64,000 nucleotides of DNA from Sipunculus nudus (lineage: Eukaryota; Annelida; Sipuncula; Golfingiida; Sipunculidae). This document shows, one piece after another, positions 2,725 through 34,043 of the stretch (the first letter of the stretch is position 1; the number at the start of each line of letters is the position of its first letter). The notes beneath the pieces were generated by a model that saw nothing but the letters and a program-made list of their open reading frames with translations, searched no databases and was not told where the DNA came from. The stretch lies in the NCBI GenBank assembly GCA_026874595.1, contig CM049310.1:78671056-78735055 (forward strand), in the 5' to 3' direction. The position numbers and the translations under genes were made by a program.

Positions 2725-3840
2725 TTACCCACATATCTCCGGAACCTTTTGACTGATCCGAAAATTTTTTTTTGCAAAAATGTAGCCCTTGGATAGCTTT
2801 ATAACAAACATAAAAAATGGTGGTGCCACCTGCAGCCATTTTTGCATGGTGTTCATCGGTTCATCTGCCTTGGGATAAAAACACTCATATTTCTGCATTG
2901 GTTGGACTTATCCACCTGAAATTTTGCATGTGAATACATCCTTGACAGCTTTCTTGATTTTATGACAGGTGGCGCCACCTACATTCACGTTTACGCTGCA
3001 GACATCCAAGCTCATATCTTTGGAACCGTTTGACCGATTGGGCCAAAAATTTTGCATGTGTATAGATCTCACATAGCTCTTTATCATACAAAAAAATGGT
3101 GGCACCACCTGCAACCATTTTTGGACAGCATCCGTCTGTTTGTCTGCCATGGGATAAAATCACTCATATCTCTGCACTGGTGTGACTTATATGCCTAAAA
3201 TTTTGCAGGTTTTTACATCATGGATAGCTTTCTGGATTTTGTGGCAGGTGGCGCCACCTACATTTATGTTTACGCTGCAGACATCCAGGCTTATATCTCG
3301 GGAACCATTTGACCGATTAGGCCAAAATTTTGCATTTGTAGAGATCTTACATAGCTCTTTATCATACACAAAACTGGTGACGCCACCTGCAACCATTTTT
3401 GCACAATGTCTGTGTGTTTGTCTGCCGTGGGATTAAATCACTCGTATCTCTGCACTGGTTTGACTTATCTGCCTAAAATTTTGCAGGTTTATACATCTTG
3501 GATAGTTTTCTTGAGTTTATGACAGGTGGCGCCACCTACATTCACATTTACGCTGCAGACATCCAAGCTTATATCTTGGGAACCGTTTGACCAATTGGGC
3601 CAAAATTTTGCATTTGTATAGATCTCACATAGCTCTTTATCATACGCAAAACTGGTGGGGCCACCTGCAACCATTTTTGCACAGCGTCTGTCTGTTTGTC
3701 TGCCGTGGGATTAAATCACTCATATCTCTGCAGTTGTTTGACTTTTTGCATTTGTATACAACTTTGATAGCTTTCTGGATTTTGTAGTAGGTGGCACAAC
3801 CTACATACACATTTCGGCTGCAGACATCCATGCTAAAATG
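2725..3840. repeat. Tandem array, about 4 units of about 278 bp, with a 14-bp palindrome
   Basis: The landmark GACATCCA recurs at 3001, 3280, 3558 and 3823, giving periods of 279, 278 and 265 bp; a more diverged first unit begins near 2725. Three units carry the perfect palindrome AGGTGGCGCCACCT (2967-2980, 3246-3259, 3524-3537). Each unit also has a nearby GGTGGNNCCACCTGCA relative (for example near 3103 and 3374) and the phrase TTTGACCGATTGGGCCAAAA. Several short antisense ORFs of 60-80 codons are artefacts of the repeat. Stops in all frames and the variable period argue against a coding array. Confidence 0.9.
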
Positions 3841-10006: not shown

Positions 10007-10133
10007 GTTTCTCGAAGCCTTGCAGGCTGGCTGTATCCCGATGTTGCTGAGTAACGGCTGGGCCCTCCCATTCTCAGAAGTGATAGACTGGAGCAAGGCA
10101 GCCATTCTAGGAGATGAGAGATTGCTACTTCAG
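10007..10133 (+). CDS. EXT1: Exostosin-1 exon (end of GT47 domain)
   Basis: The exon has 127 bp: one base finishing a split Arg codon (xxG), then 42 codons ending in CAG. The acceptor is TCACAG (10001-10006) and the donor GTAAGA (10134). The peptide includes [18 protein letters not shown] and [20 protein letters not shown], which is the C-terminal core of the exostosin GT47 domain. I recall human EXT1 as nearly identical here (FLEALQAACVPVMLSNGW). EXTL3 differs at these positions, which favours EXT1. In EXT1/EXT2 the GT47 module is assigned glucuronosyltransferase activity in heparan sulfate chain growth, in the Golgi lumen. The exon ends in phase 0 and joins the next one in frame. Frame was chosen by homology; translation past the donor leaves the family at once. 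Confidence 0.97.
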
Positions 10134-10269
10134 GTAAGACCACTCGAGGCCTTCAGACATTCCATAAAACCAAAACCTCAGCCCAGACACTATATTAATT
10201 ACCACCTGATTATAGTGAAGGTGTAGGAAAAAAAGTATGTGTCCATCTTGTTTAATTATGAATTTTTAT

Positions 10270-22024: not shown

Positions 22025-22144
22025 GTGCCATCAATTGTGCGTTCCATTAGTCACAATGATATTCTGTTACTACGGCAACAGACACAGTTCCTATGGAATA
22101 CTTATTTCTCTTCCATGGAAAAGATCATAGATAGCACACTAGAG
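22025..22144 (+). CDS. EXT1: Exostosin-1 exon (GT47 / GT64 linker)
   Basis: The exon has exactly 40 codons, phase 0 at both borders, after the acceptor TCTCTTACAG and before the donor GTAAGA at 22145. It begins VPSIVRSI and continues [18 protein letters not shown] to IIDSTLE. Human EXT1 has a very similar run here ([18 protein letters not shown] from memory), so the call is secure. The segment links the GT47 lobe to the C-terminal GT64 module. Its last 20 or so bases are the founder unit of the tandem array that fills the start of the next intron. Reading through the donor would meet TGA at 22181-22183 after twelve extra codons. Confidence 0.97.
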
Positions 22145-23100
22145 GTAAGACTAAAATTAGATATCTCACTCAATGCAAAGTGATCATACATAGATTGCAC
22201 TATTTGTATATCTATCACATAAAACACTAGAGGTAAGACAATAATAGATATCTCACTCAGTGAAAGGTGATCATACATAGACTGCACTATTTGTTTGACT
22301 ATCACATAAAACACTAGTGGTAAGATAATAAGAGATATCTCACTCAGTGTAAGGTGATCAGACATAGACTGCACTATTTGTTTGACTATCACATAAAACA
22401 CTAGTGGTAAGATAATAAGAGATATCTCACTCAGTGTAAGATGATCAGACATAGACTGCACTATTTGTTTGACTATCACATAAAACACTAGTGGTAAGAT
22501 AATAAGAGATATCTCACTCAGTGTAAGGTGATCATACATAGACTGCACTATTTGTTTGACTATCACATAAAACACTAGTGGTAAGATAATAAGAGATATC
22601 TCACTCAGTGTAAGGTGATCATACATAGACTGCACTATTTGTTTGACTATCACATAAAACACTAGTGGTAAGATAATAAGAGATATCTCACTCAGTGTAA
22701 GGTGATCAGACATAGACTGCACTATTTGTTTGACTATCACATAAAACACTAGAGGTAAGACAATAATAGATATCTCACTCAGTGAAAGGTGATCATACAT
22801 AGACTGCACTATTTGTTTGACTATCACATAAAACACTAGTGGTAAGATAATAAGAGATATCTCACTCAGTGTAAGGTGATCATACATAGACTGCACTATT
22901 TGTTTGACTATCACATAAAACACTAGTGGTAAGATAATAAGAGATATCTCACTCAGTGTAAGGTGATCAGACATAGACTGCACTATTTGTTTGACTATCA
23001 CATAAAACACTAGTGGTAAGATAATAATAGATATCTCAATCAATCTAAGGTGATCATGCATACGTAGACTGTACTATTTGTTTAACTATCATATGAAACT
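22145..23100. repeat. 87-bp minisatellite carrying copies of the exon's 5' splice site
   Basis: Copies of ACTAG(A/T)G|GTAAGA recur with the GT at 22145 (the real donor), 22233, 22320, 22407, 22494, 22581, 22668, 22755, 22842, 22929 and 23016; spacing is 87 bp (88 for the first). A degenerate one lies at 23105. Each 87-bp unit looks like three diverged 29-bp sub-units (CACTAGTGGTAAGATAATAA, TCACTCAGTGTAAGGTGATC and TGCACTATTTGTTTGACTAT). Because 87 is divisible by three and one antisense frame has no stop, the array gives a 319-codon antisense ORF that is an artefact. Confidence 0.95.
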
Positions 23101-23540
23101 TGAGGTAGGCAGTAATAGATATCTCACCTAGTGTAAGTTGATCATACATAGAACACTAATTGTAAGACAATCATAACTCCCTAGAATTGAGATAATCAAA
23201 CTTAGCACACTAGCTGTAAGATGAGCCCAGCACACTTGTGTAAAGACAAGCATATGCCATAATCTAGAAGTAAGGTGAGTAGATGTGTAGCAAACTAGAG
23301 GTCATACATACCACACTAGTCATAAGACATTCATAGCTCAGTAGAAGTAAGACAATCATACATAGTTGGCTCATTGTAAGAAATTTATAGCACAAGAAAT
23401 GTAAGCAATCATAGATCACTAGAGGTAAGACAGTCATATAAAGCACACTAGAGGTAAAGATGATTGCACAGCATGTGGCATGTGGTAAGGCATGTGGTTA
23501 CAAATAGCACACTAGAGGTAAGACAATAATAGACAACACA
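23101..23540. repeat. Degenerate continuation of the splice-donor minisatellite
   Basis: Irregularly spaced relatives of GCACACTAGAGGTAAGACAA run through this stretch (for example GT at 23425, 23454 and 23518). The copy around 23518 matches the exon/intron junction over TAGCACACTAGAGGTAAGAC. It appears to be the older 25-30-bp form of the array before the 87-bp trimer expanded. Confidence 0.8.
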
Positions 23541-24481
23541 TTGTAGCAAAACATGTACCTAATACCCTTACAAAAAACAGTGTGGGAGCACTTTGAGGGT
23601 TTTATATGGTTTGAGTTTAACTTTAACTGCAGCTAAGCTTAGATGTATATTCCCTTTTATTAAGGATCAAGCAGTGTATGAGTGGTAACACTGTGGTCTC
23701 TTCCTCCAGTGAGTGACTGGTTAACCTGGTACACAGACTCCTGTTGGTACAGTCAGAATGGGTGATGTGGTACAGTCAGAGAGGGTGATGTGGTGCAGGA
23801 ATAGGTTATGATACACAACAGTACATCCTGTTGGTTACTACATTATCAGGAATCACATATAAAGGTCGCCCTGAAAGAAATCAAAGTGGATACTAAAACA
23901 GATAACATTAGCTTTACATCTCACCCACCCAGGTCTGTGCTTTCTTTCCTTTTATAACTTGCTATTGGGGTTCAGATGCTTTTACTTTAATTACCTTTAG
24001 GGCGGGTTTCAATTTATATGGCTTCTGTGTAATTAATGGGTAAATGTAATGGGGGAGTATTTTAGAAACAAGTCTTCTGATACCAGTTTCCTTACATTTT
24101 TTTCGTCCATAATTAATTTATTGATTTAAGTATTTATATTGGTTCTGGTATCTGAGGTTTAATTTCTTTTTCAGGTGTGTTTGTGCACATCCAATTTTAA
24201 TTTTATTCAATGGTGAAATCTTATGCATCACCATTGTGACCTTGGTCAAGTGAGATTTTGATCATTATTTTCTTCTAATTTAGACTTTGATTGGCATTTC
24301 AGATTAAATTCATTATTTTTTTCCCATACAGAGGTACAATCAGATATTCTGTGACTTTTCACTGACCATATAAGGTGATGAAATTGAACCTTTCAAATTT
24401 TAGAAAAGTGGTGAAGGGATTCTGTGACCTTGATTTTTCCTGTGCCTAGATCTTAGTATTTTTCTGCAGTGTATTTAGTAA

Positions 24482-26747
24482 GGCCAAAAAATAAAACATA
24501 TGGTTCTCAGGCTCCACCCGCATCAATTTTAACCCCATGCTTCAAAAAATTTTTCATTTGATTTTCTTCTTTCAAGAAGATAAAATAATACAACTGTGAT
24601 AGGATTTCCTTTGTTATGTAGTGCTTTTACCTGTTAAGTCATAAAATTCTGTAATTCTCATCCTTTTCTCTCATCATATGACATTTTTAGCTCAGCTGAC
24701 TATAAGTCATCTGAGCTATAGTCGTGGTCCATTGTCCGTCGTCCGTCCGTCTGTCCGTCCGTCCGTCCGTCCGTCCGTAGATGTGGCACGTTTTGAAACC
24801 GTAAGACCTAGGAATCCAAAATTCAGCATAATGTTAGATGTCCCCAAGATCTCCTACCAAGCCTAAAACTGGGTCTTTGCGACTTCGTTCCTTTGAGAAA
24901 TTAAGGAAAAACCTCAATTTTTTATTAAAATCCTATTTTCACACTTCAGGACTGCCTAATATCAAAACCACTCATCTGTTTTTCCTCATATTTACCATAA
25001 ATATTCTTCTATATAGTTCCTATGTACATGCCAGAAATTAAGACTGTTAAGTATAAATTCTTTAAGTTATGGGCCCAAACATTATGGACTTTGTAAAAAA
25101 TCAGGAAAAATATTTACTCACTTAACATGAAAAATTTTGAAACTAGAGTCTATTTTCCCAAGTATATAACTATGTTTAATTAAGATTCAATTGTTTACCC
25201 AAAATTAGATCTGAATTTTGTAAATTTTTTAAGTAATTAGCATAAAAATAAAATCAGTACCTTAAATTTTGCCCAACTTTGACCATGGCACGTTTTTTTC
25301 CTGTAAGTACCATTGATTTAATTTTCACAGCATATAAACATAAATATTTAATTTGTTTAAATCTGAAATTTGGAAGTTAAAGCTTGAAAATTAAGCTAGT
25401 TATTGATTTTTTTCTTGAGGCTCTATTGTAGTCATTTGCTTTGATTACAGATTACAGATGCAGGGTCCCACTCCAGGTCACTGGAAGTCAGCTATGCCAG
25501 GGTTTCTGATTTGTTACAGTCACTGGGGGAGATCCCCTGCTGTGACAGGTGTACAGTTATTCTCATATCACCACCCCCCCCCCCCCCCCCCCCCCGCAAG
25601 CAAACCCAACCCACCAAGTGTTCACTGTATCTCCTTAATTGTAATGCTGTATATGCAAAAACTTTCCTTGAAAAAGTAATTCAAGGTTTAATCCAGAAGA
25701 TGCAATGTTGTGTAATGTAGCATTTTTGAAGAAATCATTTTTTTTTAAATGATTTTACCAATCATAATGGAACCCATTAGTATGCTTAAATTATGATAAA
25801 ATATGAAGCACATTATGGATAAATAAAGACACAATTAAAAATTGTGAAATCTAAATCAAGTATTTTTTTTAGATATTTATTGTTTTGCAGATTTAAAAGA
25901 TATATTTTTGTGGTAAAAAATAAATAAACATTTGTATGCATGATGTGGTATTATCTGACAAGATTGAGATTTATGATGGTGCAATTGAGAATTATGAATC
26001 AACTTTTATATTCAGATATATATTTTTATTTGAAATGTATAGAAATATAAACTTAAATTAGAAAATAATTGATGTGATAAAAAAATCAGGATTTAATACA
26101 AACATTTGTTCATTATTTTCCTGCATCAGCAGAATTTGAGATCAGGCTTTGTTTGCCCTGTTTTATGTTGTTAATTAGCTATATTTCAACTGTATACATT
26201 TCATAAAAAAATACATATATATTCAATAATATATATTATACAAAAAATAGATTCAATTGAACAAATGTGTAAACTACTGAAATGTCAACACTTAATCGAA
26301 AAACCAACTAATGATCATAGTAATAGTACAGATCATTTGTTCACAAACTGCTCACATGCTTTAGTTTCAACATTAGGAAACACATGGTCAGGTCACAAAA
26401 TATTATTTGCAACAATTTCTTGCTCATCAATACAAACCAATCATATAAACCAACCATGGCCTTTATTACCTCTTCCTCATACACTTTATCTCCATTAGAT
26501 ATTATTTTAGATTTTTACCTTCAAGGTTAACGTCAGCTGAGCACAGTGACCCATAGGTCCCTTGTTATTGAAACATGTAGTGCTTTTACCTGTTTGGCCA
26601 TAAAATTCTGTTGTTATCATGCTTTTTTCTGATCATCTGACATTTTTAATGAAACATAAGAAGAAGGTAAAAAATAAAAAATCGCCTGCCCACACTGATT
26701 TCTGAAAAAAAGTGCCTGAGAACCATACCTCTTTTTTTTTTTGGCCT
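24482..26747. repeat. Outer inverted repeat enclosing family A copy A2
   Basis: GGCCAAAAAATAAAACATAT then GGTTCTCAGGC (24483-24513) is inverted at 26714-26745 (GCCTGAGAACCATACCTC plus a T-run and GGCC). Immediately around A2, about 75 bp on the left (24610-24683, TAGTGCTTTTACCTGTT to ATGACATTTTTA) reappear directly on the right (26574-26648) at roughly 80% identity. The simplest reading is an older TIR element into which A2 inserted, but this is inference. Confidence 0.55.
24684..26566 (+). mobile_element. Family A interspersed repeat, copy A2 (interior differs)
   Basis: The 5' end TTTTTAGCTCAGCTGACTAT, a small hairpin (AGCTCAG against CTGAGCT, 24689-24717) and the (GTCC)n run at 24734-24778 match A3 at 51834. 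Homology continues to about 25330. The 3' end CAGCTGAGCACAGTGACCCA then TAGGTCCCTTGTT (to 26566) is again the family signature. The middle (25340-26520) is not shared with A1/A3 and includes a poly-C run near 25567-25594. No coding capacity is visible, so it is either a subfamily or a copy with a replaced core. Confidence 0.75.
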
Positions 26748-27844
26748 AAGATGAAATAATAAAGTATTTGGAAGGGTGAAGTGAACCTGCATCATTATAT
26801 TAACTTGTGTTTATGTGGTGCAAGATTTTATTACTACCTAGCAGTTAATTCGACCTGTAACCTTCATAAATTAGAAATTTTCAAATGTCTTATAGGAAAT
26901 TAAAATGAAAGAAATAGGATCCTTACTATGAAAATATTAAATATAAAAATCATAAAGAGTAAGTGATATACCATTGTTGACATAAGATACATATTAATTT
27001 TAAGATTGAAATTTCTTTTTTTCATTTTTCCAGTTTTATGGTACCACAGTCATTTGTTCTGGGAATTAGCATCATCACAGGTGCTGGTGTTTTCTGGTTA
27101 AATATAGATCAGACCTCAGGGAATTTTGCCCCTATAAAAATTTATTTGCAAGTCAATTGATTTCCAACCCAGCATAACAATATAGAGTTAATAAGTCGTG
27201 TTGAAAATCATGTCACAGACATTTTTTTTTCCTGGGCCACACTAAATTGTCATGGTATGTACAACCTAGTTTACCTGTAAACAACCTGCTCATGACAATG
27301 ACTTCTTAATAAATGAGTGTATTTAATTTGTAGCACATGACATTTGATCATCTCTATACATGAGATTTTAGTGAAAATAACTTGTGTGTTTTAAATTATA
27401 ATGTTTCTGTGTACTTATCCTTTTTATGGAATTAAAAGGTTTGTATTTTTAAACCAGCAAAAAATTGCGCACCATCATCTAAAAAATTATATTGTAGTAG
27501 ATCAGGTTATCTTGTATTTCATGACATGTAGTCATTGTAATGAATGAGAATACAGTTTGTCTAGGTCTGCATTTTGTATGATTGTTATATGACTTACAGC
27601 CCTGCTATTCTTTGAGTGGATTAAGGTCTTTTAAAGGTCATACCACAAACAGCAGTGGACAGTATATAAGCAGCAAGATGAAAAAAAAACATGATAAAGA
27701 ATAATGTATTTTCCCGAGAACCACATGGATTTCATGCTTTCTGTATACATATCATTATATATTCGGTGTAAAATCTAAAAGTCCTATCATAACAGGTTTA
27801 CAATAGATTACAGAGTCTTCCACTGAGGCTGTCCTGAAATGTCT

Positions 27845-30060
27845 TACTTTGAGGCTCAGAAGAGGTCAAAACCAAAGTCCAGCATCTTCACTTTGGACAG
27901 ATCTTCCCAGTGGCTCTCTCAGAAAAAGTCACCATTTGTCTTTGAGGCTCAAATGATGTTTAAACCAAAGTCCAGCATCATCACATTAGACAGATCTTCC
28001 CTATAGCTCTCTCTGAAAAAGTCACCATTTGTCTTTTAGGCATAGAAGAGGTTTAAACCAAAGTTCAACATCATCACATTAGACAGATATTCCCAGTGGC
28101 TCTCTCAGAAAAAGTCACCATTTGTCTTTGAGGCTCAGAAGATGTTTAAACCAAAGTCCAACATCATCACATTAGACCAATCTTTCCTGTAGCTCTCCCT
28201 GAAAAAGTCACCATTTGTCTTTGAGGCATAGAAGAGGTTTAAACCAAAGTCCAACATCATCACATTAGACCAATCTTCCCTGTAGCTCTCTTTGAAAAAG
28301 TCACCATTTGTCTTTGAGGCTCAGAAGATGTTTAAACCGAAGTCCAACAACATCACATTAGACAAATCTTCCCTATAGCTCTAACTGAAAAAGTCACCAT
28401 TTGACTTTGAGGCATAGAAGAGGTTTAAACCAAAGTCCAACATCATCACATTAGACCAATCTTCCCTGTGGCTCTCTCTGAAAAGTCACCATTTGTCTTT
28501 GAGGCTCAGAAGATGTTTAAACCAAAGTCCAACAACATCACATTAGACAAATCTTCCCTATAGCTCTAACTGAAAAAGTCACCGTTTGACTTTGAGGCAT
28601 AGAAGAGGTTTAAACCAAAGTCCAACATCATCACATTAGACATATCTTCCCTGAAGCTCACTCCAAAAAAGTCTCCATTTTTCTTTTGAGGCATAGAAGA
28701 GGTTTAAACCAAAGTCAAACATCATCAGATTAGACGCATCTTCCCTGCAGCTCTCTCCGAAAAAGTCTCCATTTGTCTTTAAGGCTCAGAAGATGTTTAA
28801 ACCAAAGTCCAACATCATCACATTAGACCAATCTTTCCTGTAGCTCTCCTTGAAAAAAGTCACCATTTGTCTTTGAGGCATAGAAGAGGTTTAAACCAAA
28901 GTCCAACAACATCACATTAGACCAATCTTCCCTGTGGCTCTCTCTGAAAAAGTCACCATTTGTCTTTGAGGCATAGAAGAGGTTTAAACCAAAGTCCAAC
29001 ATCATCACATTAGACAGATCTTCCCTGTGGCTCTCTCTGAAAAAGTCACCATTTGTCTTTGAGGCTCAGAAGATGTTTAAACCAAAGTCCATCAACATCA
29101 CATTAGACAAATCTTCCCTATAGCTCTAACTGAAAAAGTCACCATTTGACTTTGAGGCATAGAAGAGGTTTAAACCAAAGTCCAACATCATCACATTAGA
29201 CATATCTTCCCTGAAGCTCACTCCAAAAAAGTCTCCATTTTTCTTTTGAGGCATAGAAGAGGTTTAAACCAAAGTCCAACATCATCACATTAGACATATC
29301 TTCCCTGAAGCGCACTCCAAAAAAGTCTCCATTTATCTTTTGAGGCACAGAAGAGGTTTAAACCAAAGTCAAACATCATCAGATTAGACACATCTTCCCT
29401 GCAGCTCTCTCCGAAAATGTCTCCATTTGTCTTTGAGGCATAGAAGAGGTTTAAACCAAAGTCCAACATCATCACATTAGACCAATCTTCCCTGTAGCTC
29501 TCCCTGAAAAAGTCACCATTTGTCTTTTAGGCACAGAAAAGGTTTAAACCAAAGTCCATCAACATCACATTAGACAAATCTTCCCTATAGCTCTAACTGA
29601 AAAAGTCACCATTTGACTTTGAGGCATAGAAGAGGTTTAAACCAAAGTCCAACATCATCACATTAGACATATCTTCCCTGAAGCTCACTCCAAAAAAGTC
29701 TCCATTTTTCTTTTGAGGCATAGAAGAGGTTTAAACCAAAGTCCAACATCATCACATTAGACATATCTTCCCTGAAGCTCACTCCAAAAAAGTCTCCATT
29801 TATCTTTTGAGGCACAGAAGAGGTTTAAACCAAAGTCAAACATCATCAGATTAGACACATCTTCCCTGCAGCTCTCTCCAAAAATGTCTCCATTTGTCTT
29901 TGAGGCATAGAAGAGGTTTAAACCAAAGTCCAACATCATCACATTAGACCAATCTTCCCTGTAGCTCTCCCTGAAAAAGTCACCATTTGTCTTTTAGGCA
30001 CAGAAAAGGTTTAAACCAAAGTTCAACATCATCAACTTAGACAGTGCATCCCTGTTTATT
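27845..30060. repeat. Tandem array of about 24 units of 93 bp
   Basis: The unit reads GAGGCATAGAAGAGGTTTAA, ACCAAAGTCCAACATCATCA, CATTAGACAGATCTTCCCTG, then TGAAAAAGTCACCATTTGTC. ACCAAAGT recurs every 92-94 bp from about 27870 to 30012. The stretch around 29082-29548 is repeated at 29549-30015, a higher-order period of 467 bp (five units with shared variants). One antisense frame is partly open (31 codons per unit) but is broken by stops and indels, so I do not call it coding. Degenerate units fade out towards 30570. Confidence 0.95.
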
Positions 30061-31426
30061 CTCATTGATTGTCACTTTTTTATCTTTGAGACTTTAAAGA
30101 GGTTTTTACACCAAATTCCAGCACCTTTACATCAGAGAGAGTCCCCATGTTGCTCCCATTAAATTTTACCTGTTGTTTTTCCATGTAGCTTTCGTGAAGT
30201 GTCATCTTTTGTTTTTCACTGTGGCTTTCCTGAAATGTCACCTTTTGTATTTAAGGCTCTTAGGTGGTGTAGAAAGAAGTCCAGCATCTTAACAATAGAG
30301 CGAGTTTGCCTGAGAGTCTCCTGTTATGTTACCTGTTGGTTTTTCAGATTTGAAGAAGTAGCATGAAACCAAAGTGGAACATCTCTTTAATGAGCAATAT
30401 GTTCCTGCCGTTATCTTGAAACGTCACCTTTTTCTCTTTGAGGCTCAAAAGAAGATAAAACCAAAATCCAACACCTTTACACTGGAGTGTTTCATCAAGG
30501 TTTTCTTGAAATGTTACCATTTGTCTATAGGGCTTTGAAGAGATTTAAACCAGTTCTCATCATCTTTACCATGGGGCTATGTTTCATATATATTTCATTA
30601 TCTTTTTATCTTCAGCATAGCTTATTAATTAAAATAAGGATACTTAGTTCATGCCTTACTTATATAATTCTAATTCCATCTCTGGTTGTCATGAAGGGAA
30701 CTGTATGTTACAGTAGACTGTATTATTATTAATATCTACAATTCTATTACAGTGATTCTGGGCAAAGTAAAAAAAGGATAGCATGCCTTTAGGGGGTGGG
30801 GAGCTCTCTAATGGAACAGACTGTCAGGTATAAAGGATTATTTTTATTAATCACATTTTCATGTGAGGAGTACACCAAGGGATAAAATTGAACTGGTCTA
30901 TTCTTGGCATATCCTGTTACTGAGGCATCTCAGTCCTCAGGGGGGTCTTGTAAGGTAAGATTAAAGCAGTGATTGATCTCAGTAGGGATTAGTTGATAAT
31001 AAGAGGAAGGTCATGTACTGGGCTGGGATTTGGAGTTTGGAGCTTTATATTAGGTCACAGATCATATTGTTATACCTGCTAGACACTGGAGGTGTCATGT
31101 TTTCATTTAACAGTTCAGTAGTGATTACATGAAGGCATGAGCAGGGACTGTTAATATGATTTACTGCATGGTTATGGACATCAGCCCACCATCTTTCAGT
31201 GTCTTGTGATGGATGCTTAGGGTACAGGTGTCAGATTATCTTTTTAACAAATTAGCAACACGCCTGTAAGTCCTTTGATCTCTGTGTGTGGAGCTCACTT
31301 TAGTCTTTCATTATTTTAGTGACAGCTATAATTTGTTTCAAGGACCTGTGTCTGCATGATTTTTTTTCACAATCTTTCAGGAAAATTTTGGACAAATAAC
31401 TTTCTGGTTCTAGTGTATGCATTTGT

Positions 31427-31455
31427 TGTCCCCCGCTTCAGTGAAACAGGGGACA
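31427..31455. repeat. Stem-loop start of a GTCTGTC-type repeat
   Basis: TGTCCCC (31427-31433) pairs with GGGGACA (31449-31455), followed by GTCTGTCCATCTGTCTGTCA. The pattern of a C-rich hairpin followed by GTCTGTC runs resembles other repeats in this window (family A start, 7531 element). The downstream border is unclear, somewhere before 31620. Confidence 0.5.
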
Positions 31456-31885
31456 TTGATTTTGGCTTGTCTGTCCATCTGTCTGTCAATCTGTCAGGTT
31501 TTTATTTTCATGCTTTAACTTTACTAAATATTATCCAATTTCATTCAAATTTTTATCAATGATTGCTCTCATGCATAACTTGGTTGGGATTGGTTTTGGA
31601 CTGTCTCTGAAAAAATTATTATCACCAGGTCCAAAACAAAACAAAATTTTTCCTTTTGTCCAAGTTAAAAAAAAAAATATTACATATGGAGACATCTTCA
31701 GGGGACATAGAAAAATAAAATACAGGCACTTTGACATGTGGAGACATCTGCAGGGGAAAATAAAAACTAAAACATATTGAAAAGGCAAAAGGGGGAAAAT
31801 AAAAGGTTGAAGCGTGGAACATAAGTTCCATGAATTTGCTTGTTCTGCTGGTTTTATGCATAGTGATATAATATAAAGGGACAAG

Positions 31886-31993
31886 TACAATAAAACCTTG
31901 CATAAGACCACCTCAGTTTTGTGACCACCTCAAAATAACAAACATTTTGGACAAACAGTCCAAAGGTGGTTGTAAATTTGAGGTTTTACTGTA
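31886..31993. mobile_element. Small MITE, 108 bp, TACAGTAAAACCT ends (copy 1)
   Basis: The left end TACAATAAAACCTTGCATAA and the reverse complement of the right end TACAGTAAAACCTCAAATTT form TIRs, each followed inward by an ACCACC motif. Relatives lie at 40595-40747 and 62447-62616. No coding content. Confidence 0.7.
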
Positions 31994-33785
31994 TATTTAC
32001 TTTTGGCTCTCATGTGTTATTTATTTCTGTGGACCATGGGTGCCATTTTAACAGTTCAGCTGGACAGTACTTTTCTACATGGAAGACTTTCAATTACAAT
32101 AATTGAATATGGTTGCAAGTGCAGTGATGTCACAGTAAACATTGGCTTATGATGGTGTATTGAATGATGTCATTAGCTAAAACTGGCTGGTTTATATCTC
32201 AGTTCTTCTGTGATGAACTTGTCACAAACAGTGTAGACTATTTTGTTTTATTTTGGATTGTCTCCTACAAATTCAGTGCAAGATAGGACATTTTTCACTA
32301 ATTAGACAATAAGTTGAATGCCTTCTGCAGCCTAGGACAAGAAGTTTTAATCCTGTCCTAATTTAATAAAACATCCCAAAAAACATGCAGACATCGGTAC
32401 TGGCACAGACTGTAGTTATCGTTCTGATAAATCCATTACAGCTGTTCTCAAAGAGCCGTTTTCATCGAGATAACAGCCCTTTCACACATATCTGTTTTAA
32501 TCAAATTAATTGAGACTGGATTTTACCCTGCTGGGAAAAAAAAAAAATCCAGGAGTATATGGTCAAGATAAAGTTTCAACTCATCACCTGACAGTAGTCT
32601 TCACTTATATAATAGTCTAATAAATAGATTTCCATACATGCAGGTCCAAGCTCAAACCTTTAGAAAACCTGGTCAGCTTGTACACAAACACAAAACTCCT
32701 AGATATACATTAAAATAATTAATTCCATTACTAGGTGTATTACATATTTGATGTAATATATGTGTAATTATTCAATCAATTAATGAATGGTAAGTAGATG
32801 AGGTTGAAAATGGTTGATGTAATATGAATTAAGTGAATGAAAGTGTAATGTTCCAAGTTTAAACCTAACTTTATTTATAATGAAGCATGGTTTGTCATTA
32901 AAGTTAGTATTGATTGACTTCACAAAAATCTAATCTGAACATTAATGATTCAGATATGTCAGTTTTATTCAGCACTAATTTGCTAATGTTTGCTCCTGAT
33001 AATTGTATATGACTGAATTGAGATTTGCTTAAGTATCATTATCGTCAAAAACACCTATATATAAAGCAATCCAAAAGTTGTTTTAAATTCATATTAGACC
33101 AGTTAAAGTGTACATTATTTTAAACCTGGTACAGTGATCTTACTGATGGTATACTTATTTTTGAACTTTCATTGATTTTCACACAATTTTATAACATTTA
33201 AAAAAAAAATTTCAAAGGTACATTATTTTAAGCACTCAGTAACAGTAAGCTACTTTTTAGCAGGCTAATATTAAACTACATGACAATATTTGACAAAAAG
33301 TTTCTTTTCCTCTGATGTGTGTCCTCTTTGTTGAAAAATGTAATTTTAAATTTTTTATTGAATCAAACTTTAAAGCTTCAGTTTAGCTAAGGTAGAAACA
33401 TGATACAGGAAAAACAAAAAATCATATTTGAGGTATTTTCATGTTGTATAATATTAGTCCATTGCAGCAGTGGCCCTTCTTGGGTTTCTGCTTCATGTTC
33501 AATTGTTTATTCTGTCCAAAACCAGAAGATTTTCTCAGCCCAGGTCCTTCTTCCTGTAAACTGCCAAAGCTCAGCTTTGTGCTGAAGTGACATCACCTCG
33601 GGAGTGGTCCTCAGCAAGGCTTCTAATGTCAAACCCATCAGATCCTCTGAGTACCGTCTGACAGGGACCACAAGTCAGGCTCCTCCATAGAACGTCACAT
33701 CTAAAGCAGTATAGAGTGATATGCTATGCAGGTTCCCAACATCCCATAATTTCATGTGTCACCTTGATAAATTGTGTTCTTTCAG

Positions 33786-34043
33786 ATCCTTAAAGATAGG
33801 ATATTCTCGGACCAGGCCCGATCAACCGAGGCTTGGAACAGCATGCCTGGGGCGCTAACATCACTGCCAGAATACTCACCAGTGCTACAAGCTTACCCTT
33901 TCTATTATCAACCATTACTGGCCCAGCCAGGAAAAGGCTTTACCGCCATCATATACACCAATATCAGCTCCTCTCGGTCTGTGATGTCTTCGCCGCTTGG
34001 CAAGCTTCTAAAAAATTTAGGAAAATCTACTTACTTAGATAAG
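33786..34043 (+). CDS. EXT1: Exostosin-1 exon (linker and start of GT64 domain)
   Basis: The exon has 258 bp, exactly 86 codons, phase 0 at both ends. The acceptor is TTCTTTCAG (to 33785) and the donor GTGAGT (34044). The peptide starts ILKDRIFSDQ and has a variable linker (SLPEYSP, YPFYYQPLL). At codons 52-59 comes FTAIIYTN, which aligns with the FTAVIHA strand opening the GT64 domain in EXT1. It ends LLKNLGKSTYLDK. In the family the GT64 module transfers GlcNAc in the heparan sulfate polymer, and EXT1 works as a complex with EXT2. No catalytic DXD motif lies in this exon; it should follow downstream, outside the window. Confidence 0.95.

Follow-up and report, generated by a model that had tools for sequence, protein, structure and literature searches.

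The row of splice-donor motifs that opens intron 4 of EXT1 in the sipunculan Sipunculus nudus fits, by its structure, the definition of a "mirage", and we think it likely (at roughly 80%) that the tail of exon 4 together with its donor was copied into the intron, that the authentic donor at 22145 is used while the decoys are mostly ignored, and that the array is tolerated rather than serving as a regulator. The direction of copying, the age of the array, and the choice of donor are what we infer from the features below. Coordinates refer to the window, the whole stretch of 64,000 nucleotides that was analysed (C5:78671056-78735055), unless a C-numbered sequence is named.

The gene is EXT1. A tblastn search with a human EXT1 protein probe places the exons for human residues 321 through the C terminus in collinear order at C5:78658855-78751332, a range in which the same probe did not find the first EXT1 exon; Pfam models identify Exostosin_GT47 and Glyco_transf_64 in the joined exon translations, and the GT64 domain exons beyond the end of the window were also recovered with the Pfam model. 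The features around the junction are as follows.

10007-10133, plus strand: upstream EXT1 exon, ending ...GDERLLLQ (tblastn with the human EXT1 probe, 75% identity)
22025-22144, plus strand: EXT1 exon 4, 120 nt, phase 0 at both ends, peptide VPSIVRS...KIIDSTLE
22118-22144, plus strand: putative source segment, the exon tail that is similar to the array monomer, most strongly over its last 21 nt
22145-22150, plus strand: authentic 5' splice site GTAAGA of intron 4
22145-33785, plus strand: EXT1 intron 4, 11,641 nt, acceptor ...TTCTTTCAG/ATCCTTAAAGATAGG
33786-34043, plus strand: next EXT1 exon (ILKDRIF...), 258 nt

The 40-residue product of exon 4 is similar to human Exostosin-1 (E 7.8e-11 against residues 363-402 of PDB 7sch_A). 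Human splice variants at c.1164+2 (intron 3) and c.1284+1 (intron 4), given in PMC9690389, and c.1165-1, from a column of a table that we take to be EXT1 in PMC5681804, define human exon 4 as c.1165-1284, which is 120 nt long with phase 0/0 as here. Both boundaries of exon 4 thus coincide with those of human exon 4, down to the same last codon, and by this comparison the EXT1 exon 4/intron 4 junction is ancient. Further downstream, the single 258-nt exon at 33786-34043 implies an intron either lost here or gained in the human lineage. The corresponding human sequence is presumably split between two exons, 5 and 6.

Two other kinds of tandem repeat were seen in passing. A second array in EXT1 intron 4 (27847-30043; 93 bp, 23.6 copies) lacks AGGTRAG, and arrays with a period of 278-279 bp occur in the window at 2813-3744 and in other stretches of the genome (L012, 2267-3019; L013, 12-758; L026, 345-880), perhaps as members of one dispersed family.

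The array that begins at the authentic donor has three parts.

22145-22232, plus strand: first trimer unit, 88 nt, diverged, containing an in-frame TGA at 22181-22183
22233-23015, plus strand: nine 87-bp trimers, 94.3-100% identical to one another, each opened by a GTAAGA decoy donor
23016-23544, plus strand: degenerate distal part, a diverged trimer followed by single monomers of about 29 bp

The preliminary description had reported ten GTAAGA motifs at a strict 87-bp spacing from 22233 to 23016, and a listing of the sites bears this out: they lie at 22233, 22320, 22407, 22494, 22581, 22668, 22755, 22842, 22929, and 23016 in steps of exactly 87 bp, the step from the real donor at 22145 to the first decoy being 88 bp. 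Near-identity holds for the nine trimers whose starts run from 22233 to 22929; the tenth, at 23016, is only 62-64% alike in ungapped comparison. Tandem Repeats Finder (TRF) reports 22136-23152 as a repeat of period 87 with 11.7 copies. On cyclic alignment the 87-bp unit proves to be a trimer whose monomers, of 29, 31, and 27 nt, have diverged, and the distal part separates into monomers that stand singly. The basic unit, of about 29 bp, joins GTAAGACA to a copy of the 21 nt that end exon 4. Autocorrelation has proximal values of 0.92 at 87 and 0.42 at 27, 29, 58, and 60, and distal peaks at 54, 25, and 29 (0.38-0.39). The last full copy of the junction occupies 23504-23524, and the identity with the junction that had been noted at 23518 is exact (TAGCACACTAGAGGTAAGAC). 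Altogether, 22145-23518 holds 28 GTAAG and 18 GTAAGA sites, the real donor included. The distal part looks older, and the near-identical proximal units suggest recent turnover; we read the whole as a 29-bp array of some age, in which a trimer beside the exon was amplified recently.

That the exon is the source and the array the derivative, as was first proposed, is supported by the ancient boundary and by the copies themselves, which carry the last 21 nt of the exon plus the donor. An array-only consensus of 24 aligned rows, GTAAGACAATCATAGATAGCACACTAGAT, matches the exon tail at 20/21 positions over its last 21 nt, in an alignment seeded with a reference monomer that was composed knowing the exon sequence; the 24 rows were hand-picked from 63 by collapsing repeated trimers and dropping short fragments, poor fits, and rows in or before the exon. 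An unseeded repeat, built de novo and ungapped from the 13 distinct 21-mers preceding GTAAG sites of the array, gave a consensus that matches the exon tail at 19/21. Outside 22101-23560, the best match of the array consensus in the window is 16/21, at 1 of 62,520 plus-strand positions, and the maximum on the minus strand is 14. In 23105-23560, 12 sites match the 28-mer that combines exon tail and donor at 17/28 or more (best 24/28), whereas over 1000 dinucleotide shuffles such sites averaged 0.25 and never numbered more than 3; the exon 21-mer alone reaches 18 in the distal part against a shuffle maximum of 17. Exon 21-mers starting at 22119 or later score 16-18 there, none with a start at or before 22111 scores above 13, and the longest exact copy of the end of exon 4 anywhere in the array is 14 nt, found once, at 23504. 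Gapped local alignment of the whole of exon 4 with the array under loose gap costs gave a score of 45, which is not significant (500 shuffles reached a maximum of 52, and the highest of 415 other 120-mers scored 49); ungapped and anchored tests replaced it.

Among the EXT1 junctions tested, the resemblance is particular to this one. When 4 donors and 4 acceptors of EXT1 in the window were each compared with the surrounding 6 kb, copies were found at 1 of the 8, the exon 4 donor, with a best copy of 24/28 versus 16-20/28 at the other seven. The upstream EXT1 exon, whose donor is CAG/GTAAGA at 10134, has zero junction copies within 6 kb, and none of eight other arrays checked in the window contains AGGTRAG on either strand.

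Arrays of this kind are already known from the mirages of amphioxus and the IFI6 minisatellite of human. Mirages are tandem copies of an exon-intron boundary, named in amphioxus Adh3 and reported in the globin genes BflGb6 and BflGb9 (PMC3087553), and amphioxus PGBD5 and troponin C have also been noted as cases (PMC3902484). As in amphioxus, i) the minisatellite-like unit in EXT1 spans the exon-intron boundary, joining GTAAGACA to the exon's last 21 nt; ii) the array adjoins the real boundary, beginning at the authentic donor 22145 of a real gene with its EXT1 exons in order; and iii) splice signals are kept in many copies, as the 28 GTAAG and 18 GTAAGA sites attest. What differs is the gene, and the short 29-bp monomer with its later 87-bp trimer layer. 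In the open-licence literature, so far as its texts were available, we found no report of the EXT1 array, nor of mirages so named outside lancelets.

Two further systems share single elements with the EXT1 array. Minisatellites with a mean unit of 30 bp, some of them at exon-intron boundaries, have been described in human duplicated genes (PMC2812944). There they are reported to alter the introns and the transcripts of genes that were duplicated recently, whereas EXT1 is a conserved gene. Models of intron gain by tandem duplication (PMC4974935, and the Rogers model as cited in PMC3087553) likewise invoke a duplicated segment carrying AG/GT, but no new intron is evident in EXT1, where the copies sit inside an existing one.

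By score, several decoys equal the real donor. The real donor 9-mer, GAGGTAAGA, is kept identically at 22233 and 22755, as had been pointed out, and also at 23425 and 23518, making four identical decoys; all four share with the real donor a U1 duplex energy of -9.6. Scored with human donor frequencies, the real donor reaches 5.97, and by the same frequencies the decoy AAGGTGAGT at 23275 outscores it at 8.34. That the decoys are ignored is not readable from the sequence, because four score equal to the real donor and 23275 scores higher. Donor 22145 would probably be preferred, since it terminates a short 120-nt exon and comes first in transcription. Use of any decoy would leave the TGA at 22181 in the message, an expectation of the preliminary description that stands: this codon is in frame and upstream of 15/15 translated decoys, so decoy use cannot extend the protein past 22181, and the resulting transcript would likely be degraded and unproductive. 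With decoys mostly ignored and any use of them unproductive, we take the array to be, most likely, intron sequence that is tolerated and has no regulatory role.

A regulatory role is the strongest rival, and we consider it unlikely. By competing for U1, the decoys might divert some EXT1 transcripts to the stop at 22181 and so to degradation, the length of the array then setting the EXT1 dose; a lowering of EXT1 output by leaky donor choice had been put forward in the preliminary description. Alternatively, U1 sites in a row might guard the long intron from early polyadenylation. Sites scoring at least as high as the real donor are indeed denser in the array (5, or 3.6 per kb, four of them sharing its 9-mer) than in the other 10.24 kb of the intron (2, or 0.2 per kb), and the five GTAAG columns of the consensus show a mean agreement of 0.87 versus 0.77 for the other 24 columns, which leaves room for some constraint. 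A human precedent is the minisatellite of IFI6, or 6-16, reportedly described by Turri et al. in 1995, with a unit shorter than that of EXT1, about 12 bp. Like the EXT1 array, it offers multiple splice donor sites, and two of its downstream units do serve as donors, yielding different isoforms (PMC4526556). IFI6 thus makes isoforms from its repeat, whereas in EXT1 the stop codon precedes the translated decoys. Against regulation, the amphioxus mirages are reported to leave splicing undisturbed, with no aberrant mRNA (PMC3087553 and PMC3902484), and by analogy with amphioxus we lean toward copies that are tolerated and splicing that is normal.

We regard as very improbable a second rival, in which the array is an older intron satellite and either gene conversion from it or chance made the exon tail similar. 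Gene conversion between adjacent repeats is common, and KIIDSTLE differs from human KIVLTTLE at three residues (I, D, and S). Yet the exon end codes for conserved EXT1 residues at an ancient boundary, and a match of comparable quality is absent elsewhere in the window. Nor was the array found elsewhere in the genome. The same array at another locus, with an origin other than EXT1, had been named at the outset as the observation that would speak against an exon source, and within the reach of our searches there was no such copy: DNA queries of 1508 and 174 bases against all 1,426,538,692 bases, in searches that skip very common words, returned the EXT1 locus only. The 20-mer ATAGCACACTAGAGGTAAGA, allowing at most 3 mismatches, has 87 matches in the genome, 16 of them in the local array, and the other 71 compare with 62 for a reversed control. 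Twelve of those 71, mostly 89 bp apart, belong to one array at C11:71197628-71198893 (minus strand) carrying ACAGCAGACTAGAGGAAAGA, which differs at 3 positions from the 20-mer of the EXT1 junction. Where the donor would stand, this array has GAGGAAAGA, with no GT, and it is probably unrelated to the EXT1 array.

The last argument against a satellite that preceded the exon is that the same geometry recurs, with a different sequence, in a copine gene on another chromosome than EXT1. This case was found by searching for three copies of GAGGTAAG at 25-55 bp spacing and reading four arrays, all on C1, among the 100 matches listed.

C1:69716179-69716092, minus strand: copine exon, 88 nt, GLKDKDVFSKSDPMCVVYSKNMHTDQYHE
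C1:69714600-69716179, minus strand: the copine exon with its array, whose units appear to be copied from the exon tail plus donor

The exon belongs to a chain that, taken whole, matches copine BONZAI 1 at E 4.3e-7, each of its two stretches being weak singly; the joined copine exons contain a C2 domain by Pfam, and the following exon keeps the frame (SGRTEM). Behind the donor, GAG/GTAAGA at C1:69716091, lie about 1.5 kb of repeats in 44 pieces, mostly of 28-36 bp. The common unit matches the last 32 nt of the exon at 29/32; the exon end recurs exactly over its last 21 nt in 3 units and over its last 14 in 27, and the donor 9-mer GAGGTAAGA stands at 32 sites, the real donor included. Judged by these sequence features, the copine array is a second mirage in the Sipunculus nudus genome. 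The same copine intron also contains a different, 29-bp array of about 10 copies (stretch L072, 9479-9773), which ends about a dozen nucleotides before the next exon.

An assembly artefact is hardly credible: near-identical 87-bp units are hard to assemble, and the count of proximal units could be wrong, but the diverged distal monomers (26/29 at 23425, 21/29 at 23133, and 20/29 at 23347 against the reference) are hard to explain in this way.

Our preferred reading, in which the exon tail and its donor were copied into the intron, would then proceed in steps: tandem duplication of the exon 4/intron 4 junction; growth of a 29-bp array, which subsequently diverged; and recent amplification of one trimer in the exon-proximal part.

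Whether other exons have taken this path can be asked of donor motifs genome-wide. Three copies of CAGGTAAG give 899 matches versus 193 for the reversed motif and, among the matches listed, 14 distinct arrays versus 1 (the whole of C1 plus C2 to 37.22 Mb; one-sided binomial 0.0005). Three copies of CAGGTGAG give 1678 matches versus 995 for the reversed motif and, again among the matches listed, 7 distinct arrays versus 1 (C1 to 63.82 Mb), where some of the 7 may be related copies, such as the pair at 0.06 and 2.17 Mb with a common spacing. Raw matches to GAGGTAAG do not outnumber those to its reversed control (398 versus 471), and of its four arrays among the matches listed, all on C1, three are without an exon at the upstream edge. 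EXT1 and copine are two actual cases, while a broader habit of the genome is only suggested by such counts. We would give even odds to the proposition that exon ends with their donors repeatedly seed minisatellites, which would leave dozens of genes with a real donor followed by a series of near-identical ones.

A further array at C1:1645032-1650964 (minus strand; stretch L068, 2033-7965) has a 30-bp unit, TTTTTGTTTTATAG/GAG/GTAAGACTTGGTG, with acceptor-like and donor-like signals separated by 3 nt. Its better part has about 136 copies according to TRF, and AGGTAAG is kept at 49 sites; it resembles rows of recursive-splice-like sites, and no exon was seen at its edge.

We wish to emphasize what these arrays may offer. 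The layers of the EXT1 array, diverged monomers and near-identical trimers, would show the path from a junction to a minisatellite while the source exon is still constrained by its protein. Together, EXT1 and copine, the latter with 32 donors sharing one 9-mer, offer an immediate way to ask if the choice of donor depends on nothing but position. The presence of such an array in a second gene may point to a repeated habit of this genome, and if the excess of donor-motif arrays has the same origin, the process would be frequent in the genome and not a lancelet curiosity. Repeated seeding, if true, would amount to a natural experiment, outside the lancelets, on a spliceosome choosing the first of many equal donors.
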